Positions 27,394 through 60,169 of a DNA stretch of 64,000 bases are shown here, piece by piece; positions within the stretch are counted from its first letter, which is position 1; every line of letters begins with the position of its first letter. The stretch lies in contig JAFVHP010000044.1 of the NCBI GenBank assembly GCA_017474455.1, forward strand, positions 62,001 to 126,000, read 5' to 3'. The DNA comes from Lachnospiraceae bacterium. Lineage in GTDB: Bacteria > Bacillota > Clostridia > Lachnospirales > Lachnospiraceae. The notes under the pieces were generated by a model. It saw only the letters and a program-made list of their open reading frames with translations, made no database searches and was not told the origin of the DNA. Made by a program: the position numbers and the translations under genes.

Positions 27394-27861
27394 ATGTCGA
27401 AAATGCCGCAGTTTCCACAGAAGGAGATAAAGCCGGTCCCGCCTTTCAGGGAGTATCCGGGAGGCTTTCTGAACCAGAAATACATGATGCCGGTGGACCG
27501 TATAAAACAGGTCTACAATGACGGGAATGTCGTCGGGATATCGTGCGATCTGCTGGTACCGGCGTACCACGGATATCCGCTCAGCATGATCCATCACATC
27601 CGTGCGAAATATGATTTCCTGGAATTCACGAACGACCCGATGACGCTGACCGTGGAAGGACATACCTATACCTTCGCGGAGATGACAACGATGAGCACGC
27701 TGTACTGGGAGTTCGGGGAATTTGCCACGCTCTTTATCCCGGTCCCCGGAGGCGCCGGCCTCGGCCAGCACAGGCTGGAAGTATACGTCGCCTTCAACGG
27801 CAACGGTCCAAGGGTATCGGAGACGGGCGTCGTCGCCGAATTCAACATGCTGGAAGTCTGA
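27394..27861 (+). CDS. C-glycoside deglycosidase beta-subunit-like (DUF6379), pair 1
   Basis: This 155-residue beta-rich protein resembles the small subunit of bacterial C-glycoside deglycosidases (DgpB/CarC type). Shared features with the other two copies here are an entry strand around GISCDLLVPAYHGYPLS, YTFAEMTTMS, and EFATLFIPVPGG followed by HRLEVYVAF. The subunit packs against a TIM-barrel partner encoded 17 bases downstream. GGGGG five bases before ATG 27394 supports that start over 27373. Function is inferred from the family; whether this pair cleaves C-glycosides is untested. Confidence 0.65.
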   Translation: MSKMPQFPQKEIKPVPPFREYPGGFLNQKYMMPVDRIKQVYNDGNVVGISCDLLVPAYHGYPLSMIHHIRAKYDFLEFTNDPMTLTVEGHTYTFAEMTTMSTLYWEFGEFATLFIPVPGGAGLGQHRLEVYVAFNGNGPRVSETGVVAEFNMLEV

Positions 27862-27878
27862 GAAGGGAGGAAAATACG

Positions 27879-28871
27879 ATGGCAATCAAACTCGGTGTTT
27901 CATTATACAGTTATCAGTCACTTTTCCTTCGCAAGCTCATCGATATCGAAGGAGGCATGCGCGAAATACATAAGCTCGGTGCCACGGGCCTGCAGATGCT
28001 GGGCGAGGAAACGCCCCTCCGGCCGCAGTATCCCAAGCTCCTGCAGAAGGATATCGACTGGTGGAAAGACCTGTGCGCGAAGTATGAGATCGTTCCGACA
28101 TGTCTTGATGCGGAGACCTATCCCACGCTCTACAACAACAGGTATCTCACCGCCAGGGAGCAGGCGGACCAGCTGGAAGCCGACCTGAAATACGCCCATG
28201 ATCTGGGCTTTACGGTCATCCGCGTACTGTGCGGCGTGGATCCGGAAGTCGTCAGACTGGCTATTCCCGCAGCGGAATATTACGGCGTCAAAATGGGTCT
28301 GGAGGTGCATCCCCCGCTGGCCCTCGACTGCTTCGCGGTCAGGCGCTTCCTGGAGATGGCGGACGAGTCCGGCACTAACATGCTGGGACTTATTCCGGAC
28401 TTCGGTATTTTCCGCCAGGGTGCCGAAGGGCACACGATGTATTACGCAAAAGTCATGGGCGCTGATCCCGATGTCGTCGAATGGATCAACGACTGCATGA
28501 TCGCCGGCATTCCCGTGGCCGAGATCCGGGAAGAGCTCTGCGCGCATGGCTGCGACCATCCGCTGTACATGCGGCTGGCCAACGACTTTATGAAACGGTA
28601 TCAGGAGCCGGAAAAGCTCCGTCCCCTGAAGGATAAGATCCTTCATTTCCACGGGAAATTCTGGAGAATGAGGGAGGACTGCACCGAAGTTTCCGTCAAT
28701 TATCCCGAAGTCTTCAAAGTCCTGAAGGAAATGGACTGGGACGGCTACATCTGTTCCGAATTCGAAGGACAGCGGGCTTACATGGGCCAGGCCTGCCCTT
28801 ATGAGGAAGATGAGATCGAGCAGGTCCGCAGGCATCATGTCATGATGAACCGGCTGATCGCCGAAGCATGA
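27879..28871 (+). CDS. C-glycoside deglycosidase alpha-subunit-like TIM-barrel protein, pair 1
   Basis: This 330-residue xylose-isomerase-like TIM-barrel protein keeps the four expected metal ligands: Glu in GLEVHPP, Asp in LIPDFGIF, His in LHFHGKF and Glu in CSEFEG. Sugar-phosphate isomerase/epimerase is the generic label. The adjacent DUF6379 gene points to the CGD alpha subunit, which opens the C1 bond of 3-oxo C-glycosides by metal-assisted elimination. The C-terminus RRHHVMMNRLI recurs in pair 3. AGGGAGG precedes the ATG. Confidence 0.72.
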   Translation: MAIKLGVSLYSYQSLFLRKLIDIEGGMREIHKLGATGLQMLGEETPLRPQYPKLLQKDIDWWKDLCAKYEIVPTCLDAETYPTLYNNRYLTAREQADQLEADLKYAHDLGFTVIRVLCGVDPEVVRLAIPAAEYYGVKMGLEVHPPLALDCFAVRRFLEMADESGTNMLGLIPDFGIFRQGAEGHTMYYAKVMGADPDVVEWINDCMIAGIPVAEIREELCAHGCDHPLYMRLANDFMKRYQEPEKLRPLKDKILHFHGKFWRMREDCTEVSVNYPEVFKVLKEMDWDGYICSEFEGQRAYMGQACPYEEDEIEQVRRHHVMMNRLIAEA

Positions 28872-28915
28872 CCTTCTAAGCTGTACGAAGCATGAGCTTC
28901 TAAGCTAAAAATAAT

Positions 28916-28961
28916 AAGCGGCATCCCGTACGCTGCAAAGCATACCGGGTGCCGCTCTTTT
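28916..28961. terminator. Terminator between CGD pair 1 and the CE1 gene
   Basis: AGCGGCATCCCGTA pairs imperfectly with TACCGGGTGCCGCT and is followed by CTTTT on the plus strand. It sits between convergent genes and can serve both. Confidence 0.7.
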
Positions 28962-29001
28962 CATGTCCGTTAACAGGACCGGGCATATGCCCGGATAAAG
29001 A

Positions 29002-30300
29002 TCAGAAGAACAGTTTCAGCGCGTTGTAAAGGTATTCGACGAGCGCCGCGAAATCATGTTCTCCGCCCTCTTTCATATAGTAGACGACATGTTCCTTTGG
29101 GAAGAATCCGGATTTCTCCAGCATCGGCTCCATCAGGAAATCGACCTGCGGTTTGAACAGGTCATTCTCTCCTATGCAGCTGTAAATGAAATAGCCTCTT
29201 TCATCCAGTTTGTTCTTGCGGATCAGGTCCGCCATGAACCAGAGCGTATCATTGACCGTTTCATTGTACTCTTCGCTGTAAGCGCCGCTGACATACCAGC
29301 AGGGGCCGCAGATCGGCAGGAAATAACTGATATAATCCGAGTTCGTACAGAACTGGTTCCAGGTCGTAACGCTTCCGAGGGAGAACCCGCCGAAGCCTCT
29401 GTGATCACGGGAAGCGATAAGATCTTCTTTTGACGTCGACTTCGCGTATGTCTTTAACTCCGATTCGACGGCCGGCATAATGTCGTTCACAAATTCCTGG
29501 TCGAACTTCATAAGCTGGAGCACGGCCGAGTCGAAATCCGTTTTGGAATTATCCCTGTCTATGGTCAGGGAAACAATGATCATCGGCTTCATATCGCCGT
29601 TCATGATCATGTTGTCGAACATGTTCTTGGCGGCTCCGCCGTTTTCCAGAAACAGGTCTTCGGCTACGTTCTCTATACCGCAAAGATAATAGAAGATGTC
29701 ATACCGGGTATCCGGGTCGTTTTTATCATAACCGTAGGGCAGATAGACATAAGCCGGTTTGATAAAGACAGCCTTTTCGTTGTTGTTGACATAATCATGG
29801 GTCCTGTACTCGATCTCCATCAGGCTTCCCTGCTCGGCCGCGGGCAGGGCATATCCGTCGGCGACAGGGTCTGTCAGGCCCCTCTGCGGGATATTGATCG
29901 TCCGCCTGACTTCCGGTTCGGGGGCAGCAGCTTCTTCCGCGGGCGCTTCGGCTTTCTCTTCTGCTTCTTTCGCGGGCTCAGCCGCTTCCGCTTCCTTCTG
30001 TTCAGGTTCTTCTGCAGGTTCCGCCTTCTCAGGCTCTGCATTTTCCGGCTCCGCTTTCTCCGGCTCCGCCGTCTCCTCGTCAGCCACTTCTGCTTCCGCT
30101 TCCTCCGCTTCCGGCTCTGCTTCCTCCACCGGCGCTTCGACAGCCTCAGCTTCAGCCGGCGCGGGCTGGTCCTTTTCCTCCGGAGCTTCTGCTGTTACGG
30201 CAGCGTCAGCCGCCGCGGCTTCTTTATCCTCTTTTTTCCCGCAGGCAGACATTGCCAGGGACAATGTCAGCAGACAGATCAGCAATAATGACTTTTTCAT
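29002..30300 (-). CDS. Lipid-anchored CE1-type esterase (feruloyl/acetyl-xylan esterase-like)
   Basis: This 432-residue lipoprotein has lipobox MSAC (Cys20), then roughly 110 residues of almost pure Glu/Ala/Pro, and a catalytic domain from about 130. That domain has VYLPYGYDK, MKPMIIVSLTIDRDN, nucleophile elbow GFSLG, and a C-terminal GEHDF with the likely His. The layout matches CE1/esterase-D feruloyl and acetyl-xylan esterases. A surface location would let it strip side groups from xylan before uptake. GGGAGGG supports the start at 30300. Ferulate versus acetate cannot be told. Confidence 0.8.
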   Translation of the reverse strand: MKKSLLLICLLTLSLAMSACGKKEDKEAAAADAAVTAEAPEEKDQPAPAEAEAVEAPVEEAEPEAEEAEAEVADEETAEPEKAEPENAEPEKAEPAEEPEQKEAEAAEPAKEAEEKAEAPAEEAAAPEPEVRRTINIPQRGLTDPVADGYALPAAEQGSLMEIEYRTHDYVNNNEKAVFIKPAYVYLPYGYDKNDPDTRYDIFYYLCGIENVAEDLFLENGGAAKNMFDNMIMNGDMKPMIIVSLTIDRDNSKTDFDSAVLQLMKFDQEFVNDIMPAVESELKTYAKSTSKEDLIASRDHRGFGGFSLGSVTTWNQFCTNSDYISYFLPICGPCWYVSGAYSEEYNETVNDTLWFMADLIRKNKLDERGYFIYSCIGENDLFKPQVDFLMEPMLEKSGFFPKEHVVYYMKEGGEHDFAALVEYLYNALKLFF

Positions 30301-30421
30301 AATTTTCCCTCCCGACTTTCCTGTGTCATACACATATGTCTACAGGTTCGATCTACAGAATATTATAGTATAAATTTCCCGGAGCGGCGCATGGCGGGAA
30401 CGGGAAAGAAGGACCGTTTCC

Positions 30422-30450
30422 TTTATATCTTCCCGGTTTTCCTCTATAAT
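30422..30450 (+). promoter_or_regulatory. Promoter of the pseudokinase-PP2C operon
   Basis: TTTATA and TATAAT are 17 bases apart. The -10 ends only nine bases before the start codon, so the transcript may be nearly leaderless. Confidence 0.45.
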
Positions 30451-30459
30451 TAGGGTATT

Positions 30460-32766
30460 ATGAGTATTAATTACATTCAGCTGACACCTTCTGTCAAAAT
30501 CCCAAAGGGGAATTTTGCCCCGCTGTACGACTTTACGGAAAACCGTGATCTTTTCGACAGCTGCCTGCATGCTGAGATCCTCTCGGCGGACGATCCGGAG
30601 CACAGTTTCGCGGAGCTCAGGAAAGCCATGGAGCTTATGGCTGTCGATCTGGAAGTTTCGTACTGTATGGGTGCTCACGAGACCGGCGCCGGTCCCGCTG
30701 TGAAAGCTCTGCTCGCCTCATCCGGACCGGATCCCCTCTCCCGGCAGGCCCTGGCTGCCGCGGTCAGAAGCGATATGCAGAATTTCGAGCTCAAGCCGCG
30801 CATTACGGCAAAATCCCTTATCGGAAATGCACTGACCCGGCACTATCATCAGGAGAATTCCGCTTTCCGCCGTAAAGAGAATGAGCTGAAGCACGCGTAT
30901 TTTCAATTCCTGCAGCAGCGGGACGACCCTATGTATGCGGAAAAGTACGCACAGTATACGCAGGACCAGCCAAACGGGGACCCGCCTAAGCATTTCACTA
31001 CCCGCAGCTTTGTTTACGACCTGTATGACATATTCAGTTCTGTCGGTTCACACGCAAAGCTCCAGGCCGGAGATGAAAGCATGGAAAACGCCGCGGCCGG
31101 CGAAGAATGCCAGCGGATCCTTTCCCTTTTCTATGACCTGCTGCGCATTCTGTACAGCCTGCCCGGGCATTATTCCATGGCCCGCTGCCCGATCGGCGAA
31201 TTCATCCCGGTGGAAAGGAACCAGTACAATGACCTTCACCTGACCTTCCACCGTACAAATGACATATATGTAAAAGAGACCGGTTCCGGCATTGAATATT
31301 TCCTGCTGAAGGAAGTGCCGGCCGCGTCGAGCGACCTGCGCGCAAAGCGTGAACTGACCGCGCTGGCCAGACTCTGGCAGGATTCCATCGACTCGCCCAA
31401 CAACGTCCTGTACATGCAGGGCACGGTCGGTCACGGGACGCTCATGCGGCGCGTCTTCGGTTTTCCCGACAGGCCCTTCGCGCTGGACGACTGGTTCATC
31501 GGTACGCTCACGGCTCCCCAGAAGGATGAGCTGGCCGCCGGCCTGATCAAAGCCGTGGATTCGCTCCATGCAATGGAGCCGCCGCTCCCCCACCGCGGCC
31601 TTTCCCCTTCCGCTTTTTATATCTGCACCGTGCACGGGAGAGTAAAACCCCTGCTGGCCAGTTTCGATACCGTAAAGGATCTGCGCGCGGACGTTTCCTT
31701 CTCCGTCGGAGCGTTCCTCAAGGATTATACAGATGATCCCCGCACCAGGGATTTCATCGCGCCGGACCTTCTGGGAGAGGATCCCGACCTGCTGGGCGCT
31801 GACATTTATTCCCTCGGCAGATTGCTCTCCTATCTTTACACCGGCCGCGCCATCTTAGGCGGCGATGCCGATGAGGGTCCAAATACTGCTTCCGGCCAGG
31901 GCATGTCCGGGGACAAACGGGAACTGGTCTGCCGGATGACGGATACCGATCCGGAAAAGAGGCCGGATATCAAAGAAGTCCTGCGCGATTTTACCGTACT
32001 TGCGGAAAAGGAGAATCTGACGCCGGCATACGCCGTCTTCTCGTCCCGCGGCAGGCGCGTCAACAATGAAGACGCTTTTTACTGCAGTGATCTGGACACA
32101 CTCGCAGGCGAATCGGTACAGCAGTCCGGCAGGGCAAAGCTGCCGGCGCTCTTTGGCGTTTTTGACGGACTCGGCGGTGCCGAAGCCGGGGATGAGATGT
32201 CCCATCTGGCCGCCCGGAGTATAAGGCGCTCCGCCCGCTCGCTCCTGATCCGGCAGTACCGTGACTACACTGCCCCGATGACGGAACTCGCTGAAAAGGC
32301 CGACATGGCAGTCCGGACCTATAAGGAAGAGAACGGCCTGGAGGACTCCGGCACAACGATGGCCGCCTGCCTCATTGCGGACAATACCCTCGCTGCCGTC
32401 AATGTCGGCGACAGCCGGATCTACCTGCTGCACGGCGGCGAACTTAAGCAGCTTTCCAAGGATCACTGCTATGCGCCCATCGGCGGCCGGAAGGGATCGC
32501 TCTACCAGATCCTGGGCATGCAGGACGACGCGTATACACTGGAACCGTTCACCGCCATTGCCGGGTATGTCCCCGGCGATACGGTGCTTCTGTGCACCGA
32601 CGGGATCAGCGATGTGCTTTCAGACGCTGAGATCGCGCAGATCCTGTCCGCCGGAACCTCTCTTGGGAAAAAGGCCGCCTCCCTGGCGGAGGCCGCGGAA
32701 GCAAAAGGATCGGGTGACAATATGACTGTAATACTGTTTTCGGAGGTGCCGTCTGATGAGATTTAG
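30460..32766 (+). CDS. Pseudokinase-PP2C phosphatase fusion
   Basis: This 768-residue cytoplasmic protein has three parts. Residues 1-260 match nothing I recognise. Residues about 270-515 look like a degenerate protein kinase: Lys in FLLKEV, HRG instead of HRD (378-380), SFDT in place of DFG, and an intact GADIYSLG block. Residues 520-765 are a PP2C Ser/Thr phosphatase with NNEDAF, GVFDGLGG, NVGDSRIYLL, CTDGISDVLS and SGDNMTVIL, so metal ligands are kept. It overlaps the kinase gene by 11 bases, and the two are presumably an antagonistic pair. The pseudokinase may sense or dock the partner kinase. Confidence 0.85.
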   Translation: MSINYIQLTPSVKIPKGNFAPLYDFTENRDLFDSCLHAEILSADDPEHSFAELRKAMELMAVDLEVSYCMGAHETGAGPAVKALLASSGPDPLSRQALAAAVRSDMQNFELKPRITAKSLIGNALTRHYHQENSAFRRKENELKHAYFQFLQQRDDPMYAEKYAQYTQDQPNGDPPKHFTTRSFVYDLYDIFSSVGSHAKLQAGDESMENAAAGEECQRILSLFYDLLRILYSLPGHYSMARCPIGEFIPVERNQYNDLHLTFHRTNDIYVKETGSGIEYFLLKEVPAASSDLRAKRELTALARLWQDSIDSPNNVLYMQGTVGHGTLMRRVFGFPDRPFALDDWFIGTLTAPQKDELAAGLIKAVDSLHAMEPPLPHRGLSPSAFYICTVHGRVKPLLASFDTVKDLRADVSFSVGAFLKDYTDDPRTRDFIAPDLLGEDPDLLGADIYSLGRLLSYLYTGRAILGGDADEGPNTASGQGMSGDKRELVCRMTDTDPEKRPDIKEVLRDFTVLAEKENLTPAYAVFSSRGRRVNNEDAFYCSDLDTLAGESVQQSGRAKLPALFGVFDGLGGAEAGDEMSHLAARSIRRSARSLLIRQYRDYTAPMTELAEKADMAVRTYKEENGLEDSGTTMAACLIADNTLAAVNVGDSRIYLLHGGELKQLSKDHCYAPIGGRKGSLYQILGMQDDAYTLEPFTAIAGYVPGDTVLLCTDGISDVLSDAEIAQILSAGTSLGKKAASLAEAAEAKGSGDNMTVILFSEVPSDEI

Positions 32767-34168: not shown

Positions 34169-34199
34169 AAAAGAAGAGGCCAAGTTCCAGGATTCCCTC

Positions 34200-35006: not shown

Positions 35007-35020
35007 AAGGATGTGACAGC

Positions 35021-36253: not shown

Positions 36254-36268
36254 TGCCAGACTGAAAAA

Positions 36269-36315
36269 ACACCCCGGCAGTGTTCCTGTTTCAGGATCTG
36301 CCGGGGTGTTTTTTA
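36269..36315 (+). terminator. Terminator of the signalling operon
   Basis: ACACCCCGGCAG pairs with CTGCCGGGGTGT around a 17-base loop and is followed by six T residues; an A-run upstream makes it work in both directions. Confidence 0.85.
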
Positions 36316-36359
36316 TCAATTCATGCAGTCAGCACAGGATCCTGCGCTGTATTGTCTTA

Positions 36360-36440: not shown

Positions 36441-36474
36441 TATACTTCAGAAATACTTCCGGTTGTACATAATA

Positions 36475-36510: not shown

Positions 36511-36544
36511 CATTAGTGAAAAGAGAGAAATAATTGACTGTGTT

Positions 36545-37516
36545 TTATTCAGCGAGGTACTTCTTAAACATATCCCTGAACCTGTTGAGCTGGGGTTCGA
36601 AATCCATCGGGATCGAAGGGTCATGGCCTTCGAATTCACTGGAGACCCATCCTTTGTAGTTGTAACGGTCAAGGATCTTAATGATCTCGTCGTAAGGAAT
36701 GCAGGTCTCTTCCAGATCCTCGTTGATGTGATAGAACTTGCCGTGGATGTACAGGGTGTAAGGCATGATCATATCGATCTCTTCCAGGGTCGCGCTGTTG
36801 GATACGCGGTAGTAGCCCTGTGCAGCCAGGTTCTTTTCAGCAGGATTCAGGTCGCCCAGTTCACTCTCCGGGACACCGTTCGAAATGGCATTGATGATCT
36901 CTTCGACCTTTTCTTCCCTTGCGCCGGCTTTGACCGCGCGGACGATCGTCTGGTAAGTGGGCTTTTTCTGCATAACGCCCATGTCCAGGTTGACGCCGAG
37001 GTAATCCTTGCATTCGGGGCGGGCCATGACTTCAAAGTATTCCTGCCACTTGGGTGTGCGGGGATTGTGGGGATTGTGCAGCTCGATGACCAGCTTCATA
37101 TCCAGCTTTTCGCAGAACGGAAGCATCCTGTAATAGGTCTCGGCCCCGAATTCATGCAGTGTACGGACGTATTTGAAACCAAGACTCTTGGCTACCATCA
37201 TGTCGTTCATGGTATCGCGGATGATCTCTTCCGGTGTGGGATACCTGTCGGAACGGCGGCCCGGGTCTACATAGGTGCCGTAGCAGATAGGTGTAAGGTT
37301 ATAGTCAGACATCATCCGGCGGAAGTTGTCACACCATGCCTCCGGCGGATAAGGATATCCGGGAACTGACTGCGGAGCCACGATCTCGATGCCTTCATAT
37401 CCCATATCGGCGGCTTTCTTAACACACTCGTCAAAGGTAAGGAGCCTTGAAGTATAGGCAGCTGTCATGCTGTATATGGAAACACCGATATTGATATCTT
37501 TGATCTTATTGTTCAT
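36545..37516 (-). CDS. C-glycoside deglycosidase alpha-subunit-like TIM-barrel protein, pair 2
   Basis: A 323-residue TIM-barrel protein with the four metal-ligand positions kept: Glu in VIELHNP, Asp in GVNLDMGV, His in LYIHGKF and Glu in SSEFEG. It belongs to the sugar-phosphate isomerase/epimerase superfamily. With the DUF6379 gene 19 bases upstream it forms a CGD-like heterodimer. It is closer in style to pair 3 than to pair 1. GGGAGG precedes the ATG. The actual substrate is unknown. Confidence 0.72.
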   Translation of the reverse strand: MNNKIKDINIGVSIYSMTAAYTSRLLTFDECVKKAADMGYEGIEIVAPQSVPGYPYPPEAWCDNFRRMMSDYNLTPICYGTYVDPGRRSDRYPTPEEIIRDTMNDMMVAKSLGFKYVRTLHEFGAETYYRMLPFCEKLDMKLVIELHNPHNPRTPKWQEYFEVMARPECKDYLGVNLDMGVMQKKPTYQTIVRAVKAGAREEKVEEIINAISNGVPESELGDLNPAEKNLAAQGYYRVSNSATLEEIDMIMPYTLYIHGKFYHINEDLEETCIPYDEIIKILDRYNYKGWVSSEFEGHDPSIPMDFEPQLNRFRDMFKKYLAE

Positions 37517-37535: not shown

Positions 37536-37979
37536 TTACGCTTCTACAGAGCGGATACCTTCGTCATTGGCCTCGAGAACACTGAATTCGGGCGTAAGGT
37601 ACGCGCTGTATGGATTTCGTGACTCCAGCATCACATGGACCTTGTGCTCGCCGGGCGCGATACCGCCGTCCTTAAGCACGATGATGTCAGCCTTATCAAG
37701 GCGTCCCCAAAACTCCTTATACATTTCCGGCAGCTGGTCAATATAAAACTTCTTGCCGTTGATGCAGAACAGAATGTCGGCAGCGGGGACTTCCTCATCA
37801 TCTACCCAGACTTTAAAGTCATGGATGCAGCTCAGCCATGTCCCGCGGTATGAGCCGTATTCGACTTTGAACGTGTAGCCGAGTGTCACACCGCCCACTT
37901 CATAGATGCGGATAGGGTCATTGCAAAGGAAGATTCCGCCGCCCCAGCCTGTCGTTTTCCTGTAGGGAATAGTGATCAT
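37536..37979 (-). CDS. C-glycoside deglycosidase beta-subunit-like (DUF6379), pair 2
   Basis: A 147-residue beta-rich protein with GYTFKVEYGSYRGTWLS, a central VDDEEVPAADI strand pair, the FYIDQLPEM block and GGIAPGEHKVHVML. It parallels the other two DUF6379 proteins here, notably the canonical pair 3 copy. It is first in the two-gene operon and has a strong AAGGAG site. The first 25 residues are Gly-rich and unlike the other copies. Confidence 0.65.
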   Translation of the reverse strand: MITIPYRKTTGWGGGIFLCNDPIRIYEVGGVTLGYTFKVEYGSYRGTWLSCIHDFKVWVDDEEVPAADILFCINGKKFYIDQLPEMYKEFWGRLDKADIIVLKDGGIAPGEHKVHVMLESRNPYSAYLTPEFSVLEANDEGIRSVEA

Positions 37980-42978: not shown

Positions 42979-45900
42979 TCACTCCTTCACAAATTCCACG
43001 TATATCTCGTGATCCGCCGTAATATCTTCCAGTGCGATCCCGTCTTTTGCCGCAGCCAGGACTTCCTCCTCGGACAATTCCTGCCCGTCGATCCGGACCG
43101 CCGCAACTCTGTACCCCTCTTCAGGGATAAGCATAAAGGCTTCGTTCGCCCCGACATAGCTTTCATAGCTTTCCGTGATGCTCTCCACACTGCGCTCCGC
43201 GGTTTCTTCCAATCCGATTGAGGTGCCTTCCCGGCTGACCGTCCCGCCGCCGGACGAAGAGACACTGATCCTCACCGCGTCGCCGTATTGCGGCTTCGTC
43301 TGAACGTCCGTACCGGCGAAGACATAGCCGCCTTCCTCCGAAACAGTGACGCCAAGGACATAATACCTGCCCATGTACGCCGTACTGCAGAGGCTGTAGA
43401 CAGGCGTCAGGCTGACCATCCCTCCGGCTGGTGAGAAATGTATATCGCCGTATGAACCGGTAAACGTATCGGCGGTGACATTACCTTCTGCATCCGCTGA
43501 CACCCTGCCGCTGAACATGATCCCGTCCGCGAGTGATACCGCTCCGGTCGCGGATGCCTGGCATTCAGGTGCGTCATCGATGATCGGCTGCCCGTCGTAC
43601 AGAAGGGTCTTCAGCTCATAGCTGTTACCATCGTCTGACAGGATGATCTGATAGACGTCGTTCAGGTCATTTTCGCTGTCATTTCCGCCGAACACATACA
43701 GTGTATCCGGCCCGTCATAAACGAGGCATCTGTCCTGCCCCATCAGAAAGCCCTGATCATCCCCCGTCCGCTCAAGTTCGACCAGCGTCATGCTGTCTTC
43801 ATCGAGTTTCCTGACGGACATGATATCGGTGAAGCGGTCGATCGGTCCGAGGTGATAATAGTTTCCGCCGACGACATACACACCGGTCCCGTTGTTGACC
43901 ATGGACTTGCCGTTCTCGCAGGATTCGTCGTTCAGCAGGTAATACTCCGCAGTGCAGTCCGCGGGATCAAAGACGCCGAGGTATGCCTTCGCATCATATT
44001 CATCGTTCGCGAAGAAAAGGATCTTTCCTTTCCAGGTGCAGACGCCGGAATCCGCGGAATATCCGCCGTTGTAAACTTCGCTCCACTCTCCGGTACCGAT
44101 ATCGTACCGGAAAACAGATGTCTGCAGGGCGCGGTTATTGCAGAATGCATACAGCGCACCGTCGAAGCCGATGAGCGAGCGCATCTCGATCCCGTAGAAA
44201 GTATTGTCAAATTCGTCTGATGTTACTCTATATGTGCCGGGCGTACCGGGAGTTTTCACCAGCTCCCTCCCCGGGAGCGGAAGTCTTTCAAAAAGAGTCT
44301 CCGGCGTACCGATACGGTCATACCGTCGCCCAGCGCCACCTCCCGCTGCAGTCACTTCGATCAGATGCTCTCCGGCCGCAAGGCCTTCCGGAACTTCCAG
44401 CATGACTGCTGTATCATTCCAATCTTTCACTATGCAGGACATACCGTCTATGCTGACGCCGCCTGCCTCATCACCGAAGAAATAGCCGCTGACAGCAAGC
44501 TCCTTACAGCCTTCATCACCCAGGCTTTCGCGGGCTTTAACTGCGTTCACCACCGGAGCGGGCGTATCCTGCAGGGCTTTCCTTACGCTTGCGATCCCTC
44601 CCGTCATGGAAATATCGGCAAGGCCGTCGGCCGGTTTAGCGCTGCCGATGATCCTGGCCGCAATCCGGTCCGCTCCCTCTTCCGGATAAGCGGCCGAAAG
44701 GATCGCCGCTTCGCCGGAGACCGCGGGCGTTGCCATGGATGTCCCGGTATCGTATCCGTATGCGTCCACGTCCGCTGTCAGGGACATGCTCTTCAGGTAA
44801 ACATGATCAGCCTGCTCGTAGTCTTCTTTGCTTACATATATTGTCAGTCTGAACGACCGCTTGGATGCGCCGCGCCCGTCATAGAAATTGAAAGGTATCC
44901 TGCAGGGGCCCGCAGGACAGTCGTTCAAAACGCTCGCCGCTCCCTGCTCCGTTTCTATATCCGTGGCAAAGACTTCCACGATCACGCTTGGCGCCGGCTC
45001 CTCCAGGTACAGCTCCAGGACGCCGCCGACGCATTCTTCCGTACCTTCGAAGGTGTCGGAATCAATGGAAATGGAACCGTATTCCTCATCCTGTTCAAGG
45101 CGCAGCACCCTGCCCGCTTCCGGATGCTCTTCCAGAGTGAGAGTGGTACTGTTGTCCCCTGCCGAACCCGAAAACCCAAGGACACTGTTCACGTGGTTGT
45201 TGTCGATCGTCACGTCGTCCAGGGAATAGTCGGAGAAGAAGACCCTGCCGTCTTTTTCATACGGCTGCGCGTTATCCGGAATGTCCCCCTTCAGCCTCGG
45301 GATCGTTGAATAGATCTTGTTGCCGGGTGCGAAAACGTCGACGATCCGGCGGCTGGTATTCGTAAATTCCGTAGGCTTTCCTTCCTCGTCTGACGCGCCA
45401 ACGATCACGACGTAAGGGTTGTTATAGAAAGAAGCCTGCAGGATATCCTTGTTGTCGATCTCCAGGGCGCGGTTTCCCGCGGCAAAGACAGAGATGATCC
45501 CCAGCTCCCCGGCTTCCCTGACCAGCTTGTCCATGGTCTGCCCGAAAACGGCGTCGTGCCACGAATTGTTGATGACCTTTACGTTCACGCCGGCTTTTTT
45601 CGCCGCAATGATGTACTCGTACGCGCGGATGGATTCGACGATCGAATTGGTGCCATTGTTGTTCATGCACTTGACCGCCATGATCTTCGCGCCGCCGGTG
45701 ATCCCGCTGATGCCGGCCCCGTTCCACTCGGCGGCTATGATCCCGGCCACGTGGGTGCCGTGGTGATAATCATCCATAGGATCCGTCGTATCATACGGAA
45801 TACCATGTGTATCGCAGGGGCTGACGTTGATGCCGTACTTCCCGCCTCCCATGGCGACAAGCTCCGGATAATCCAGCCCTTCATCCCACATCACGTTCTT

Positions 45901-46284
45901 AAGGTCGGGGTGCGTGTAATCCACGCCGCTGTCCACGACAGCGACCACGATGTCCGAAGTATCGACGACAGGCACCGGCTTTCCTTCCGCGTCATACGTA
46001 TTCCAGCCGTCCACGTCGATCCCGAAAGGACCGTCCGCGTTGTACTGGAGATATGTATAATCACCGGAATCGGCCGCAGCCTGTGCTTCCGGCTGTTCTG
46101 CAACAGATCCTGCTGCCTGCGCCTCCGGCTCTTCTGCCTGTATTTCCTGCACTTCAGTCTGCGCTGCCGGTCCTGCGCCTGAGCCGGTTAAGCCTTCCGC
46201 CTGTGAAACAGGCACGTACATACAGCCGGCGCAGAGGAAAAGCCCGATGGCGGCCGCCAACAATGATAAAACTCTTTTGTGCAT
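42979..46284 (-). CDS. Subtilisin-family (S8) surface lipoprotein with TIG-like, Kelch-like and repeat domains
   Basis: A 1101-residue exported serine protease. Lipobox CAGC (Cys21), Ala/Glu/Gln linker to about 70, then the S8 domain with Asp118 (VVDSGVDYTHP), His175 (HHGTHVAG), oxyanion Asn in NNSWHD, and Ser516 in GTSMATPAVSG. Between the Asn and Ser lies an insert of about 170 residues (330-505) that looks beta-rich. After the protease come a TIG-like segment (about 570-650), Kelch-like repeats (YVVGGNYY, LYVFGGND) and a C-terminal InlB-like module. It probably processes proteins at the cell surface. Start 46284 is next to GGGAG; 46299 is possible. Confidence 0.85.
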   Translation of the reverse strand: MHKRVLSLLAAAIGLFLCAGCMYVPVSQAEGLTGSGAGPAAQTEVQEIQAEEPEAQAAGSVAEQPEAQAAADSGDYTYLQYNADGPFGIDVDGWNTYDAEGKPVPVVDTSDIVVAVVDSGVDYTHPDLKNVMWDEGLDYPELVAMGGGKYGINVSPCDTHGIPYDTTDPMDDYHHGTHVAGIIAAEWNGAGISGITGGAKIMAVKCMNNNGTNSIVESIRAYEYIIAAKKAGVNVKVINNSWHDAVFGQTMDKLVREAGELGIISVFAAGNRALEIDNKDILQASFYNNPYVVIVGASDEEGKPTEFTNTSRRIVDVFAPGNKIYSTIPRLKGDIPDNAQPYEKDGRVFFSDYSLDDVTIDNNHVNSVLGFSGSAGDNSTTLTLEEHPEAGRVLRLEQDEEYGSISIDSDTFEGTEECVGGVLELYLEEPAPSVIVEVFATDIETEQGAASVLNDCPAGPCRIPFNFYDGRGASKRSFRLTIYVSKEDYEQADHVYLKSMSLTADVDAYGYDTGTSMATPAVSGEAAILSAAYPEEGADRIAARIIGSAKPADGLADISMTGGIASVRKALQDTPAPVVNAVKARESLGDEGCKELAVSGYFFGDEAGGVSIDGMSCIVKDWNDTAVMLEVPEGLAAGEHLIEVTAAGGGAGRRYDRIGTPETLFERLPLPGRELVKTPGTPGTYRVTSDEFDNTFYGIEMRSLIGFDGALYAFCNNRALQTSVFRYDIGTGEWSEVYNGGYSADSGVCTWKGKILFFANDEYDAKAYLGVFDPADCTAEYYLLNDESCENGKSMVNNGTGVYVVGGNYYHLGPIDRFTDIMSVRKLDEDSMTLVELERTGDDQGFLMGQDRCLVYDGPDTLYVFGGNDSENDLNDVYQIILSDDGNSYELKTLLYDGQPIIDDAPECQASATGAVSLADGIMFSGRVSADAEGNVTADTFTGSYGDIHFSPAGGMVSLTPVYSLCSTAYMGRYYVLGVTVSEEGGYVFAGTDVQTKPQYGDAVRISVSSSGGGTVSREGTSIGLEETAERSVESITESYESYVGANEAFMLIPEEGYRVAAVRIDGQELSEEEVLAAAKDGIALEDITADHEIYVEFVKE

Positions 46285-46327
46285 ATGCTCCCTGTCCATG
46301 AAACTAAACTTGTTTAATGACCTTTGC

Positions 46328-46819
46328 TCAATTATTCCTGAAGATCCATTTGCCGCTGCGTGAAAGCACCTCCGCCAGCAGTTCACCCAGTACATAACAG
46401 CCGATCACCTCCCCGATCGCGATATAGCCCATCAGGACGGGAATAGGAAGGTTGATACTGTAACCGTACCGCAGGACGAACGGGATGATGACAGTGTTGG
46501 ATACGATGGCGGGGATAGGGACGAGCCATCTGGAAAAGCGCAGCTTATAGCCGATAACAGCTCCGATCAGCGTGGCGATACTGCCGAAGATGACGTCCCA
46601 TATCACTGCTCCGCCAAGTATGTTCGCGAGGATGCAGCCCACGAACAGCCCGGGTATGGCCGCAGGCGTGAACAGCGGCAGGATCGTGAGAGCTTCAGCG
46701 ATCCTGACCTGTACGGCGCCGAAGGAGATCGGCGCAAAGATGAGCGTCAGCACGACATAGACGGCCGCAATGGCCGCGCCTCGTGTAAGGAAATTCAGAT
46801 CAAATTTCGTATTTTTCAT
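46328..46819 (-). CDS. queT: QueT family transporter
   Basis: A 163-residue membrane protein with five or six hydrophobic segments. The N-terminal AAIAAVYVVLTLIFAPISFG, then VQVRIAEALTILPLFTP and LANILGGA, match QueT, the substrate-specific component for queuosine precursors in ECF-type uptake. No preQ1 riboswitch was recognised upstream. It follows an amidohydrolase gene by 45 bases and may be cotranscribed with it. Confidence 0.88.
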   Translation of the reverse strand: MKNTKFDLNFLTRGAAIAAVYVVLTLIFAPISFGAVQVRIAEALTILPLFTPAAIPGLFVGCILANILGGAVIWDVIFGSIATLIGAVIGYKLRFSRWLVPIPAIVSNTVIIPFVLRYGYSINLPIPVLMGYIAIGEVIGCYVLGELLAEVLSRSGKWIFRNN

Positions 46820-50253: not shown

Positions 50254-50284
50254 CTTTGCTTATTTTTTAATTTATTTTTCCGTC

Positions 50285-51931: not shown

Positions 51932-51987
51932 GAGATCACCTTTCCCGGCAGCTATTTGCTGCCGATCTGTCATCATTCGGTTGTGTA

Positions 51988-53577: not shown

Positions 53578-53713
53578 TGTAGACCCCCTTATTTCTCTTC
53601 CTTCTTCCGGGCTGCCAACAGGCCAAAAGCCCGTACGTCTTTGCTTATTCTACTGCTTTTATTATACACGCGCAGCTGCGTGCACAGAACTGAAAATCTG
53701 CAGTCGCAGCCGG

Positions 53714-54340: not shown

Positions 54341-54379
54341 TCATCGATCCTCCATTTTCCATCTTTCCCAATTCGATTT

Positions 54380-55018: not shown

Positions 55019-55088
55019 TCGCTGTTCCTCCTGTCCGCCGCGCCGATGCTGCCGCACTTTATACATTTCATGTTAATTATAAAATATG

Positions 55089-55114
55089 TGCTAAGATTAG
55101 GAAAATGATCACAA
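55089..55114 (+). repeat. 26-bp identical element, copy 1
   Basis: Identical to 60397-60422; begins TGCTAAGATTAGGAAAATGA. TGCTAAGAT fits an extended -10. No gene follows on the plus strand before the hairpin at 55137. Confidence 0.6.
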
Positions 55115-55136
55115 AGATCATGATCGGTGGCAGTAA

Positions 55137-55168
55137 GAAGGGCGGGTCATAGACCCGCCCTTCTCTTT
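55137..55168. terminator. Hairpin downstream of the orphan lipoprotein gene
   Basis: GAAGGGCGGGTC pairs perfectly with GACCCGCCCTTC around ATA. T-runs are weak on both sides. It can end the minus-strand lipoprotein message and any short plus-strand RNA starting near 55100. Confidence 0.6.
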
Positions 55169-55244
55169 GCCGCTTACCATATGGTTAATGAGGCAATTCA
55201 CATATTTCACATATTAACAGACACTCGCGAAGTACCGGCTGTAA

Positions 55245-56903
55245 TTATTCATTCTCAGCCATCGCTGCCTTCCAGGCATCGAGCTGTGTCTGGTAAGCGG
55301 CCAGGTAGTCATCAACACCGGCAGCTTTCTGCTCGGACTTGTATGCTTCAAATTCTTCATCATTGAAGCCGCCGCAGCCGATCCTCTTGCTCCATTTCTC
55401 ATAAACGGCGCTGAGCTGTGTCATCAGGTTCGGGATCTCGGACTGGTCAGCCTGGAAGCCAAGGAAAGGAGAGATCTCGGCAGCCATCAGATAGTCATAT
55501 GCTTCCTGACGGAAATTGCCGCCGTTGCCTTCCCAGGGATGAGCCAGGAAATAGTTGCCGTTGAAGAAATCAGTCTCATGGTATTCAACATTCTGTGATG
55601 TTACGCCTTCAGGGAATGCCGCTTCGCCGCTTTCAAGGAGAACATAGTCGCGGCCTTCGATACCCCAGTCGAGGAGGTTGGTCAGGCGCGCGTCCGTATA
55701 AAGTGCGTTGAGCCAGCGGACAGCCGCTTCAGGTTCTTCCGCTGTGATCGGAACTGCAAGACCGAACTTGCCGACGAACTGTGAGCTGATCTTGTTGTTG
55801 GAAGTCTCGACCGCGATGACTTCATAGCCGGTCGCTTCTTTCTTGGATGTTTCAACACCCATTTCGGAGATCGTGATGAAGCTGAATGTGCCGCCGGCTT
55901 TCATGATCTCGGTGGAAGTATCGTCGGTGATGATCATATCCTGATACATCCACTTATTGTCATACCATTTGCGCCACAGATTTTCGGTCGTGACATAGTC
56001 TTCATTTTCGGGCAGCCAGCTGACATTGCCTTCTGTATCGGTATATACTGCTCCGAAACCGTCGCCAAGGCTGTCGAACGCTTCATAATCGGAGAACTCT
56101 TCGCCTGTATAAAGAACAGTCGCTCCGGATACACCTGCAGTAGGAGCCAGTTCAGGATGCGCTTCCGCCATCTTGACGTAAACATCTTCGAGTTCAGACC
56201 ATGTATGGATAGCTCTGGCCTGCTCTTCCGTATAGCCGATATCTTCCAGGAGATCTTTTCTCATGATCAGGTAGTTGGCGCTTGCATAGTTCCTGTAAGG
56301 CGGAAGTGCATACTGCCTGCCGTTTACCGTATAGGCGTTCAGATAATCGCCCATCATTTCAACAGTCTCAGGCGCGTATTCATCCATCAGGTCGGTGATA
56401 TCCATGACCTGGCCATTGGCTACGAGTGATGTGAAACCGGTCGGTCCGAATGCCAGTGAGCAGATATCAAGTCCTTCACCCGCGCTCAGCATCAGTGAGA
56501 GCTGTGTGTTGTAATCGCCGAAGCTGGCGACCTGGATATCAGCCTTAACGCCGATGGTCTTTTCCGTGATCTCGTTCATCGCGTCCGCGATGCTGCCGAT
56601 CGACTGGGAATTTCCTCTTTCGTCGATGAGAAGGATCTTGATCTCGTCAATATCGCCTTCCCATACTTCTTCTGCAGCCGCTTCCGCGGTTTCTTCTGCT
56701 GCTTCCTCAACCGCTTCAGCAGTCTCTTCGGCAGCTTCTTCAACAGCTTCTGCTGTCTCCTCAACCGCTTCGGCAGTCTCTTCGACCGCTTCGGCAGGAG
56801 CAGTTGCGGTTGAAGCAACTCCTGCGGCATCGCAGGCTGCCAGCAGCATTGTCCCTGCAAGGACAGCTGCCAGGATACCGTATAATTTACCCCTTTTCAT
56901 CAT
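55245..56903 (-). CDS. Orphan sugar-binding lipoprotein (LplA-like, family 1)
   Basis: A 552-residue binding protein: lipobox LAAC (Cys24), a linker of repeated AEAVEE-type units to about residue 80, then a large family 1 fold with ICSLAFGPTGFTSLVANG and YALPPYRNYASANYLIMRKDLL. No permeases adjoin it, so it must work with permeases elsewhere. Its promoter shares an AraC-type element with CGD pair 3, which suggests it imports the CGD substrate. A remnant of a homologue lies beside CGD pair 2. Start may be the first or second Met. Confidence 0.85.
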   Translation of the reverse strand: MMKRGKLYGILAAVLAGTMLLAACDAAGVASTATAPAEAVEETAEAVEETAEAVEEAAEETAEAVEEAAEETAEAAAEEVWEGDIDEIKILLIDERGNSQSIGSIADAMNEITEKTIGVKADIQVASFGDYNTQLSLMLSAGEGLDICSLAFGPTGFTSLVANGQVMDITDLMDEYAPETVEMMGDYLNAYTVNGRQYALPPYRNYASANYLIMRKDLLEDIGYTEEQARAIHTWSELEDVYVKMAEAHPELAPTAGVSGATVLYTGEEFSDYEAFDSLGDGFGAVYTDTEGNVSWLPENEDYVTTENLWRKWYDNKWMYQDMIITDDTSTEIMKAGGTFSFITISEMGVETSKKEATGYEVIAVETSNNKISSQFVGKFGLAVPITAEEPEAAVRWLNALYTDARLTNLLDWGIEGRDYVLLESGEAAFPEGVTSQNVEYHETDFFNGNYFLAHPWEGNGGNFRQEAYDYLMAAEISPFLGFQADQSEIPNLMTQLSAVYEKWSKRIGCGGFNDEEFEAYKSEQKAAGVDDYLAAYQTQLDAWKAAMAENE

Positions 56904-56975
56904 GTCGTTTTCTCCTCCGTATGAAGAATACAGGTCTTCTATTACGCTTGCATTATATTCATTCGAAATGATATA

Positions 56976-57015
56976 TTTCTATAAAATATTCGACGCGTTT
57001 TTTGCTGTTTTCGAC
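56976..57015 (-). promoter_or_regulatory. AraC-type operator/promoter of the orphan lipoprotein gene
   Basis: On the minus strand two GTCGAA half-sites are 21 bases apart, start to start, and a TATAGA -10 lies just downstream. The 40-bp element matches 60229-60268 at 32 positions. No TTGACA-like -35 is present, which fits an activator-dependent promoter. The divergent AraC gene starts 14 bases beyond. Confidence 0.7.
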
Positions 57016-57028
57016 TTATACTGACTAT

Positions 57029-57745
57029 ATGAATCTGATTATCCTAGGTACGTCTGCAGTACTGCAGAATATAGAAAATATGGCTGTCGACTGGCAGGGC
57101 TGCGGCATAGACAAAGTGTTCTTTGCCGCTTCCGCCGGGGATGCCAAAGATATCCTGGCTGAATATCCGGTGCATATCGCGGCCGCCGCGGACCTGACAG
57201 GTCAGGGTCTGGAAGGGTACGCTTTCCTTAAGGCGCTGTCTGAAAAGAACCGGCAGTATCTTTCCCGGGAAAGCGGGGATGAAGCGCAGTTTCTCCGCGC
57301 CTTTATCATGTTCTCAAAAGAGCGCAGCTTTGAAGACGCTGTCCTGGCCGTCCGTCTTAACTGCGCCGATATCCTGCCTGTTTCCGCCGTTACGGATAAA
57401 GCGGACAAAAACGCCTTTACCCAGGCGCTGCGGCGGGCTGTTGAACAGCTGCAGCTGGCAGAGTATGCATCCGGCGTTCCGGAGCACCGTTTTATCGTAG
57501 AAAGGCTCTGGCTGTCCCTCCTGTCCGGCTCCCTTTCCCCGGAAGATCTTTTTGTACAGACATTGGCCGGGAAGTATGACATCCCGCTGTATCCGGATAC
57601 TCTTTACGTGCCGGTCCTTGCAAAGATCAGGCGTTATAACAGGGAAAGCGCCGAACCTCCCAGGGATACGGAACGACTGCTTGTAAGGATTCTGCGAAAG
57701 AACGATCGTGGGCGACCGGTTCAGGGGATGCATCATCCAGTCTGA
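57029..57745 (+). CDS. AraC-family regulator, receiver-like N-terminal part (frame broken)
   Basis: About 238 residues. The first 120 resemble a degenerate response-regulator receiver: MNLIILGTSAVL, ADLTGQGLEGY at the phospho-Asp position, and FEDAVLAVRLNCADILPV like the alpha4-beta5 region. The frame ends in PVQGMHHPV, while the regulator continues in another frame from about 57708 (GDRFRGCIIQSE). One extra base near 57700 explains this. A TATACT lies seven bases before the ATG and no ribosome site is seen, so the start is uncertain. Confidence 0.7.
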   Translation: MNLIILGTSAVLQNIENMAVDWQGCGIDKVFFAASAGDAKDILAEYPVHIAAAADLTGQGLEGYAFLKALSEKNRQYLSRESGDEAQFLRAFIMFSKERSFEDAVLAVRLNCADILPVSAVTDKADKNAFTQALRRAVEQLQLAEYASGVPEHRFIVERLWLSLLSGSLSPEDLFVQTLAGKYDIPLYPDTLYVPVLAKIRRYNRESAEPPRDTERLLVRILRKNDRGRPVQGMHHPV

Positions 57746-58652
57746 AAAAAACCAGATACTGATCCTCCTGTACTACCGCGGCGCGCAGGATTTTGACGCT
57801 GACAGCTGTAAGGACAATTGTGAAGAGGTGATCCGGTACGCCTCGCAGACACTGGGCTGTGATACCTGCATCTTTGTCGGGCATATCTCCCCCTTCCGGG
57901 AACTGCGGGCCAGCATTGACCATATTAACGGCATGGCTTTTAATATCGTGGCGTATTACAACCAGGTCTTTTTCGCGGACAGCCACGTTATTCCGCCCCT
58001 GGCTTCCGTTATGCCGGATACGGATAAATGGTCGCGCATGCTGCTGACGATGCATCCGGAGATACTCAAGAAAGAGATCCGGCTATATTTCCAGCAGATG
58101 ACCATTGCCGGGGCTATGGACGGGCGCCTCCTCTCCATGTTCAGGGAAGATACGATTCAAATGATATACTCCCTTCTCAGGGAAAGGGATATCAACGCCC
58201 ACGAATTCACCTATGACGCAAAGCTCCAGGCACTCTCGCCCGAAGCCTCGGAATCCGCGGACAACATGCTGGCCTTCACCTTCCGGGCCATTGACCTGGT
58301 GGCGGAGCTCCTGAAAGAAAAAACAGTCTCTGTCACCGAACAGGCACGGGAATATATTGATATGCACTGTACGGAAGACATTACAAGAGAAGAGATCGCG
58401 GCGCGCTTCTTCCTGCATCCGGACTATCTGGACCGGATCTGCAAAAAAGACTTTGGCTGTACCGTCAGACAGATGATCATGAACGCCAGAATAGAAAATG
58501 CCTGCCGCCTGCTCCTTGAGACAAAAGTTCCTGTCAGCTCCATTGCTTCCCGCTCAGGCTTCAAATCCCCGGCTCACTTTTCCATGATATTTAAAAAAGA
58601 GACAGGGCAGACGCCGAAAGAATACCGGCAGAATGAAGGCCGGAAAGGCTAA
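57708..58652 (+). CDS. AraC-family regulator, C-terminal DNA-binding part (frame broken)
   Basis: This frame holds a middle region of about 200 residues and a C-terminal AraC helix-turn-helix pair from about residue 215: TREEIAARFFLHPDYLDRI and VPVSSIASRSGFKSPAHFS, ending GQTPKEYRQ. It lacks a ribosome site, so it is the downstream half of one frameshifted gene. If a full-length product is made, it probably controls the lipoprotein and CGD pair 3 promoters that flank it. Confidence 0.8.
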   Translation: MGDRFRGCIIQSEKNQILILLYYRGAQDFDADSCKDNCEEVIRYASQTLGCDTCIFVGHISPFRELRASIDHINGMAFNIVAYYNQVFFADSHVIPPLASVMPDTDKWSRMLLTMHPEILKKEIRLYFQQMTIAGAMDGRLLSMFREDTIQMIYSLLRERDINAHEFTYDAKLQALSPEASESADNMLAFTFRAIDLVAELLKEKTVSVTEQAREYIDMHCTEDITREEIAARFFLHPDYLDRICKKDFGCTVRQMIMNARIENACRLLLETKVPVSSIASRSGFKSPAHFSMIFKKETGQTPKEYRQNEGRKG

Positions 58653-58697
58653 AGCAAGGCACAGCGGCGCCCGGGAGATACCGGTATAACATAACAA

Positions 58698-58727
58698 AAG
58701 GCCCCTTTCGCGAGCAAAAAGGGGCCT
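58698..58727. terminator. Terminator between the AraC gene and CGD pair 3
   Basis: AAGGCCCCTTT pairs with AAAGGGGCCTT around a loop containing CGCGAGC; it serves the convergent genes on both sides. Confidence 0.7.
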
Positions 58728-58752
58728 TCGTTTACCGGTCCTGACAAGCCTG

Positions 58753-59208
58753 TCAGACAAGAAGCAGTCTTCTCTTATGACGGCCGTTTCCTGCCATCAG
58801 ACCGGGAATATCCGTTTCCGGAAGTTCTTCGTCGGGATCCATATGCGTCTGCAGCTGGGGCGGCAGATACGAAGAGGAAAACTTGAATCTCACTTCCACA
58901 TCATGGTAGCCCTGTGAAAGTCCGCCGGGAACGTATACTTTCAGGGTCGCGGTGTCATTGGTGCAGCACCAGTGCACGTTGGTCTCGGTCTCCATCTGGT
59001 CTGTCGTATATTCCTTCCCGTTGACTTCCCAGATCACGTCCTTTTTGGGATATACTTTCCCGTCTACGACCATCGCGCCGGGAAAGATCTCGGAGAGATA
59101 GATCCCGCGGTAATAAGTCGAACGTACTTTGACCTGAAAACCAATTATTTCACCGTCTTTAACTATATTTCTGAATCCGCGCTGCTGCACGATCGGTTTT
59201 TCCAGCAT
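58753..59208 (-). CDS. C-glycoside deglycosidase beta subunit (DUF6379), pair 3
   Basis: The most canonical DUF6379 protein of the three, 151 residues: GFQVKVRSTYYRGIYLSEI, VDGKVYPKKDV, YTTDQMETET and LKVYVPGGLSQGYHDVEV. A polar C-terminal tail includes PDEELPETDIPG and a basic RHKRR end. It is second in the operon, 61 bases after the alpha subunit gene. AAAGGAAT precedes the ATG. In known systems this subunit completes the active site of the TIM-barrel partner. Confidence 0.78.
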   Translation of the reverse strand: MLEKPIVQQRGFRNIVKDGEIIGFQVKVRSTYYRGIYLSEIFPGAMVVDGKVYPKKDVIWEVNGKEYTTDQMETETNVHWCCTNDTATLKVYVPGGLSQGYHDVEVRFKFSSSYLPPQLQTHMDPDEELPETDIPGLMAGNGRHKRRLLLV

Positions 59209-59269
59209 GATCTTATTCCTTTCTTTTATTTACAAACATATTCAGACAGGAGCATAGGGCAGTCCGTCA

Positions 59270-60169
59270 TCAGAAGCCGAGGATCCTCTTCATCATAATG
59301 TGATGCCTGCGCAGCTGGTCCGTGACAAAACCGGGTTCATCCTTATGCGCGCCTTCGTATTCCGAGAGCATATATCCGTTGTACCCGTTGTCCTTAAGGA
59401 CCCTGATGATCTCCGGATAGGGGATCGTCGTCTCTTCAAAGTTCTCATCCATATAATTGAATTTCGCGTGGCAGCAGTATACATAAGGCAGGATCGGAAT
59501 GATATCCTCAGGCAGGCTGCAGGGCGACCCGTCTTCCGGCATGCCGGGAAGCCTGAAGGATCCCTCGAACACGTTCTGGAAAGTCCCGAAGTCCACATTG
59601 AAACCGAAATACTTCGTCCCTGTCTGCAGGATGAATTCCATGTAATCATCCACATATCTGCTCTTTAAGCGCGTGGGCATGTGCAGCTCGGGGCACATCC
59701 TGACATTACATTCTTCCGCCAGCGGCAGCGCCCTTTTAATGATCTCCCTCCAGTTCTTCACCGGCGTGTTGGTGGGGTCGATGACGCCCATCTTGGTACG
59801 CATGACAGTGAAGCCGAGCTTATGGGCCAGCCTGATATCCCTGGAAAGCTGCTCATAAGATTCTTCCACGTCCAGCTCCCTGCCGTTCTTTACATATTCA
59901 TGGGAATAGAGGCGGCTGTCGATCCAGTGACCGTATTCCACCGGAATGATCTCATACTTGTCCAGCAGCCTAAACCAGTTTTCCAGCCATTCTTCCGTAG
60001 GGTTCGGGTAGTTGTCGATATGGCCGTTCGCGAGGATCTCCAGACCATGCGCGCCCATATCATACATATCAGCCAGACAGTCTTCCAGATTCATGGACCA
60101 GCCGTATTCGCCGGAATAACTGTAAACAGAAACGCCCCTCTTGGGTCCCTGATGATTTTCCTGATACAT
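59270..60169 (-). CDS. C-glycoside deglycosidase alpha-subunit-like TIM-barrel protein, pair 3
   Basis: A 299-residue TIM-barrel protein with metal ligands Glu in CPELHMP, Asp in FNVDFGTF, His in CCHAKFNY and Glu in LSEYEG. It ends [14 protein letters not shown], much like pair 1. It heads the operon with a strong AAGGAGG site, under an AraC-type element shared with the orphan lipoprotein gene. The order alpha-beta here is opposite to pairs 1 and 2. Confidence 0.75.

Follow-up and report, generated by a model that had tools for sequence, protein, structure and literature searches.

Why would one stretch of bacterial DNA carry three separate gene pairs, each coding for a DUF6379 protein and a TIM-barrel protein, and what could such pairs do? 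The question arises from 64,000 nucleotides of a Lachnospiraceae bacterium genome (GCA_017474455.1, contig JAFVHP010000044.1, positions 62,001 to 126,000 of the forward strand), referred to below as the window. A first inspection of the letters alone (the sequence-only reading) likened these pairs to C-glycoside deglycosidases (CGDs), alpha/beta heterodimers that act after a dehydrogenase has made the 3-oxo sugar. Family, fold and site-residue comparisons confirm the three predicted pairs as CGD alpha/beta pairs. Each pair is new; the CGD family itself, whose members release sugars from plant compounds through elimination rather than hydrolysis, was already known. The six genes are as follows (E, expectation value):

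27394..27861, plus strand: pair 1 beta, DUF6379/CGDB, 155 amino acids (aa); PF19906 75.3 bits; best PDB match 9m3b_B (E 1e-9)
27879..28871, plus strand: pair 1 alpha, TIM barrel, 330 aa; best PDB match 8qvc_A, the Deinococcus aerius CGD (E 9e-52); EHDHKEE site residues present
36545..37516, minus strand: pair 2 alpha, 323 aa; best PDB matches 7xrf (E 1.4e-47) and 7bvr, DgpC (E 1.5e-47); site residues present
37536..37979, minus strand: pair 2 beta, 147 aa; PF19906 103 bits; PDB matches 9m3a_B (E 1e-22) and DgpB (E 1.4e-19)
58753..59208, minus strand: pair 3 beta, 151 aa; PF19906 119 bits; PDB match DfgB, 7bvs_B (E 8e-40)
59270..60169, minus strand: pair 3 alpha, 299 aa, EuCGD type; PDB match DfgA, 7bvs_A (E 8e-119); site residues present

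CGD gene pairs in the window

The sequence-only reading had placed its three pairs correctly: the genes are real, with PF19906, PF01261 and CGD relatives in the PDB. All three betas exceed the PF19906 cut-off of 27.6 bits, and all three alphas match PF01261. The Pfam name of PF19906 is now CGDB ('C-glycoside deglycosidase beta subunit'), and the label 'DUF6379 domain-containing protein' persists in the PDB. The PDB matches listed for the window betas consist of CGD beta chains and 8qrz, a fused CGD. For the AlphaFold2 model of the pair 2 alpha (predicted local distance difference test, pLDDT, 92.3), Foldseek ranks 1-16 hold CGD alphas or fused CGDs only; for the pair 1 beta model (pLDDT 84.4), all 17 matches with E <= 0.001 are CGD betas or fused CGDs.

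The genes of pairs 1, 2 and 3 are separated by 17, 19 and 61 bp, by open reading frame (ORF) coordinates. The pairs are diverged and differ in gene order, as had been observed: pairs 1 and 2 run beta-alpha and pair 3 alpha-beta. The difference had also been taken as a possible sign of different glycosides; it is mostly a clade marker. Among the eight EuCGD-like short alphas of the genome, seven were scored alpha-beta (one of these by hand, its beta ORF call being overlong) and the eighth lies in a tandem alpha-beta-alpha-beta array. The remaining non-fused alphas are beta-alpha in 20 of 22 cases; for one of these 20, C19_134951, the closest unfused beta is 1.6 kb distant. Gene order thus largely follows clade.

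A genome-wide set of CGDs

The genome is a 2.62 Mb draft in 51 contigs, 96.6% complete with 1.3% contamination. It contains 33 PF19906 matches, none with an internal stop, and 34 CGD alphas; these form 28 CGD loci spread over 14 contigs, the largest of 327 kb. The count of three pairs given by the sequence-only reading is therefore correct for the window, and the other members of the genome-wide 33 lay outside its view. A fourth CGD pair starts 369 bp past the window end. Finding three pairs in 33 kb is unsurprising because there are 28 CGD loci genome-wide: when these were placed at random, at least three fell within some 33-kb stretch in 69% of 5000 simulations.

The set is structurally varied. 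It includes three alpha-beta fusions, one beta-alpha fusion (C19_133439), tandem pairs and an alpha-beta-alpha triplet. The natural fusions lend indirect support to a predicted alpha/beta complex whose active site would lie at the interface. Alphas within the genome share 31% identity on average and 77% at most; the GC fraction of CGD genes is 0.519 vs 0.527 in the surrounding loci. In the triplet (C41:49458-52206) the two alphas are 69% identical, and the single beta between them may be shared. At C19:99137-99663 a beta lies in two overlapping frames next to an intact alpha, which may reflect a pseudogene or a sequencing error.

Occurrence in other genomes

CGDs have so far been studied for a few dietary or plant C-glycosides, and reported numbers per genome are small. 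In the genus sample, CGDB was present in 7 of 62 genomes, this one included (counts 33, 9, 5, 2, 2, 1 and 1), and 55 were without it. It was present in 16 of 392 genomes of the order sample and in 4 of 398 genomes, each at least 90% complete, of the phylum sample; both figures include this genome, of whose 37 candidates just 11 were scored in these two samples, and the other genomes had at most two each. In addition, 31 genomes were selected because they carry the family, 28 reached through named loci and the other three being G005, G332 and G395. All 31 have PF19906. The highest count among them is 25, in the 1.6 Mb of SIG488 (G416, a metagenome-assembled genome (MAG) listed as 'Oscillospiraceae bacterium isolate SIG488'); G421, G425 (the isolate Catenibacillus scindens), G437 (0.9 Mb) and G443 (Bryobacterales) have 14 each, and G436 has 8.

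Large CGD sets thus exist elsewhere, since SIG488 has 25 and four genomes have 14 each. The 33 copies are the largest set among the genomes examined, which is no proven record. A comparable per-genome CGD copy number was not found in print at the level of titles and abstract openings among the open-licence PMC papers listed, most of these lists being capped.

CGD genes are also clustered in other carriers. In G437 (Oscillospiraceae RGIG5648), 9 of the 13 listed PF19906 matches lie on its contig C22. In the congener G455, 8 of 9 CGDBs fall within about 46 kb of one contig (G455:C8:59436-106421), interspersed with AraC-GH39 relatives, MATE transporters, Gfo/Idh/MocA matches and a binding protein.

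History of the set

Relatives of the alphas were sought with a 12-row alpha alignment, and the best 80 of 205 confirmed relatives were used; among these, pairs 1 and 3 have their closest named relatives in SIG488. From that genome 21 of the 25 CGDB places were fetched; they gave 21 alpha ORFs, of which two are truncated at a contig end. Reciprocal best hits in SIG488 were found for 11 of the 34 alphas, including those of pair 1 (76% identity) and pair 3 (87.5%). The pair 2 alpha had no reciprocal best hit among the fetched SIG488 alphas (best 30%). One SIG488 alpha (G416:C44:7569-8477) does not have the H-G/A-K pattern of the other full-length SIG488 alphas in a simple pattern search.

A FastTree tree was built from 160 alphas: 34 of this genome, 19 of SIG488, 13 of congeners and 94 from named loci, the last group in part duplicating SIG488. 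The 34 alphas fall into 29 own-only clades, five of two members and 24 single. Since none exceeds two, the CGD set is mostly an old, diverse repertoire, whether it was kept or acquired, and not the product of a recent burst.

Active-site residues

In AgCGD2 the metal ligands are E147, D179, H269, K271 and E305, and H149 and E307 are catalytic (PMC8563793). All seven residues, the five ligands and the catalytic His and Glu, are identical in the three window alphas and in all 34 alphas of the genome. The sequence-only reading, which had noted four conserved metal-ligand positions, is borne out and extended by this result.

A further relevant residue lies in the beta subunit. In PuCGE, replacement of beta Tyr39 by Phe abolishes more than 99% of C-glycoside cleavage and affects O-glycoside cleavage far less (PMC10628242). 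A Tyr aligned to this position, as counted along the DgpB alignment, is present in all 33 betas of the genome. Its invariance favours a retained capability for C-C cleavage in the predicted enzymes.

Candidate 3-dehydrogenases

An elimination pathway of this kind begins with oxidation of the sugar, and the window contains one candidate for this step:

20581..21837, plus strand: Gfo/Idh/MocA oxidoreductase, possible 3-dehydrogenase; PF01408; best PDB match DgpA 7xr9 (80 bits, residues 1-262)

This protein has two paralogues in the genome at 45-49% identity, with C21_34826 at 48-49%. In the congener G469, a 79% relative of C21_34826 is directly followed on the same strand by an alpha, a beta and a 63% relative of the DUF3502 binding proteins; in the same genome a DgpA-like gene (36% identity) adjoins two further CGD pairs. 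It is possible that the window Gfo/Idh/MocA protein is a 3-dehydrogenase.

Three Gfo/Idh/MocA proteins of the genome were compared with the PDB. One of them, at C30:82001-83080, is a full-length DgpA-like protein: it matches DgpA 7xr9 with E 1.6e-85 over residues 6-355 of 360 and is 68% identical to a C. scindens protein. Its gene lies 3.0 kb and 6.2 kb from two CGD pairs; upstream of it lie genes for a PF01261 protein and two regulators, one of LysR type and one RpiR-like that barely passes the cut-off. Other matches to the C30 protein in this genome, in a search with that protein, are at most 33% identical. In Dorea, D3dgpA is described as broad and specificity is assigned to D3dgpBC (PMC11239390).

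The sequence-only reading had proposed an oxidise-eliminate pathway. This is still the best reading for the pairs, but the dehydrogenase that it named is a distant DgpA relative (80 bits), and the full-length DgpA-like protein is encoded on another contig.

Binding proteins, regulators and other neighbours

Two further genes of the window lie near pair 3, and GH39-like genes accompany CGD loci elsewhere in the genome:

55245..56903, minus strand: extracellular solute-binding protein, SBP_bac_8 and DUF3502; candidate uptake partner of pair 3
57708..58652, plus strand: AraC-family regulator (HTH_18, 80 bits) encoded between the binding-protein gene and pair 3, with a putative role suggested by its position
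L024:10481-12931, L029:12926-15385, L034:11045-13609, L041:6598-8301 and L036 (C30:13762-15990): GH39-like genes by CGD loci, mostly AraC-fused

The binding protein had been called an orphan. It does lie in the window, but its DUF3502 family is linked to CGD loci genome-wide: 13 of 21 such proteins are encoded within 5 kb of one (binomial P 9e-8) and 7 of 21 within 2 kb (P 2e-4). GH39-domain genes (six, merged from eight matches) show a similar linkage, five of six lying within 5 kb of a CGD (P 1.3e-4); of the four scanned for an AraC domain, three have a clear one and one a weak one. MATE transporter genes (35, merged from 69 matches) show no significant linkage to CGDs here, with 6 of 35 lying within 5 kb (P 0.24). 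Efflux through CGD-adjacent MATE transporters was considered from their adjacency in G455 and G469, but was set aside on this value.

At 57002-58652 of the window two ORFs overlap in different frames, and the second carries the AraC helix-turn-helix; they may be a single regulator broken by a frame change. The xylan and xylose genes of the window (GH43, GH3, an FGGY kinase and a xylose-isomerase-like protein that falls short of the Pfam cut-off) look ordinary. At 42979-46395 a subtilase-family protein of 1138 aa has weak Kelch-repeat matches.

A proposed mechanism and the evidence against it

We consider it likely that the pairs are metal-dependent alpha/beta eliminases of the CGD family, belonging to a set of about 33 enzymes that is probably served by shared 3-dehydrogenases and DUF3502 uptake; activity, substrates, the shared dehydrogenase and uptake are what we infer here. 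DUF3502 binding proteins would take part in glycoside uptake. The sugar would then be oxidised at C3 by one or a few broad dehydrogenases, the DgpA-like protein and possibly also the window Gfo/Idh/MocA protein. The 3-oxo sugar would be held on the metal of the alpha TIM barrel (Mn2+ in solved enzymes), where the conserved alpha His would abstract the C2 proton. With the aglycone pocket completed by the beta subunit, beta-elimination would then break the C-C or C-O bond. In such a scheme, a few shared 3-dehydrogenases may supply many eliminases of differing specificity.

Several observations weigh against this scheme or parts of it. PuCGE alpha Tyr303, the oxyanion-pocket partner of Tyr39, is not conserved at the presumed position in the alphas of the genome. 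Of 15 dehydrogenase genes in the genome, 5 lie within 8 kb of a CGD locus (P 0.1) and 3 within 5 kb (P 0.27), which is no significant linkage. Four of the nine CGD carriers queried (SIG488/G416, G455, G437 and G443), some genomes being incomplete, are without a full-length DgpA match above 32%. The binomial P for DUF3502 proteins presumes independent, uniform placement; of the 13 linked proteins, three share one locus and two another, and one matches only weakly and in part (25.6 bits in an 87-aa frame). Within the set itself, the beta at C19:99251 is matched only partly and is split across two ORFs, and the pair on C10 is strongly diverged.

Substrates and competing explanations

Would so many enzymes serve C-glycosides at all? 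Most of the set might instead act on ordinary O-glycosides or oligosaccharides as an alternative to hydrolases, with C-C cleavage marginal; this comes close to an even chance. PuCGE cleaves 3-keto O-glucosides too, and Bitter et al. propose a generalist role, C-glycosides being minor among plant glycosides (PMC10628242). Linkage of CGD loci to DUF3502 proteins and to GH39-domain genes, mostly AraC-fused, suggests carbohydrate uptake and sensing, and 33 enzymes seem excessive for C-glycosides alone. Natural abundance likewise favours O-glycosides as main targets. The Tyr required for C- but not O-glycoside cleavage, however, is present in all 33 betas, and non-enzymatic breakage of 3-oxo O-glycosides also occurs (PMC11239390).

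A wider form of the eliminase reading makes the bacterium an elimination specialist, with about 33 diverged eliminases, each suited to a different aglycone or linkage, broad 3-dehydrogenase(s) and dedicated DUF3502 proteins. It is advanced tentatively and rated somewhat below an even chance. If true, the enzymes would act in nature on many O- and C-glycosides of plants, a range far wider than the flavonoid C-glucosides that define the family.

The remaining alternatives fare far worse. That the alphas are generic xylose-isomerase-like sugar isomerases, epimerases or hydratases beside an unrelated beta-sandwich protein is very improbable and was rejected on match ranking and site residues: the Pfam label of the alphas is the broad PF01261 only, but every listed CGD alpha outranks any isomerase, and betas are adjacent, natural fusions occur in both orders and the CGD residues are invariant. 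That the 33 copies stem from contamination, from mis-binning or from mobile elements that multiplied recently deserves hardly any credence: such a reading could appeal to a draft of 51 contigs and to 55 of 62 CGDB-free genus genomes, but the copies lie on 14 contigs of up to 327 kb with a GC fraction close to that of their surroundings (0.519 vs 0.527), the closest two alphas are 77% identical, the 29 own-only clades do not exceed two members, and independent genomes also hold large sets (25 in the SIG488 MAG, where 11 of the 34 alphas have reciprocal best hits, and 14 in the isolate Catenibacillus scindens).

About 33 CGDs in 2.6 Mb, in a genus most of whose sampled members have none, suggest that oxidation and elimination can be a main glycoside-breaking strategy. 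The set is also a natural variant panel for mapping the residues behind C- vs O-glycoside and aglycone specificity.

Comparison with known systems

The three window pairs resemble different characterized CGDs. Pair 3 is very close to EuCGD (DfgA-DfgB of Eubacterium cellulosolvens; 7bvs/7dre), with E 8e-119 for the alpha and 8e-40 for the beta. The EuCGD alpha is described as having no lid domain (PMC8563793), and the pair 3 alpha is likewise short (299 aa). The best matches of the pair 2 alpha and beta are PuCGD (DgpB-DgpC of Dorea sp. PUE) and W974-1 DgpB2/C2 (9m3a). Four helices in the pair 2 model, residues 188-253, appear to lie at the place of the PuCGD lid domain; pair 2 differs in sharing 28-30% identity with PuCGD and DgpB2C2 in Foldseek alignments and in not being adjacent to dgpA. 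Pair 1 is nearest, by its alpha, to the Deinococcus aerius CGD (8qvc/8umc; E 9e-52). Its beta departs from that enzyme: 28 residues, low-confidence in the model, precede the CGDB match, and the PDB matches are weak (best E 1e-9).

Fused forms have a precedent in the CGD of Microbacterium testaceum (8qrz/8un2), a single-chain beta-alpha protein like C19_133439. Unlike that system, the present genome has three alpha-beta fusions in addition. In human gut MAGs, putative C-deglycosylating enzymes are reported to be rarer than O-deglycosylating ones (PMC8398226).

A parallel for a multi-copy arrangement is found in Catenibacillus scindens and C. decagia, where multiple dgpBC clusters and separate dgpA genes are taken to explain a broad C-glycoside range (PMC11170127). 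That study, which applied an identity threshold of 33%, reported four dgpBC in C. scindens, and six plus DfgAB in C. decagia. By PF19906 matches, C. scindens has 14 and the present genome 33. The difference between 14 matches and four reported dgpBC in C. scindens suggests that the identity thresholds used so far may undercount the CGD family.

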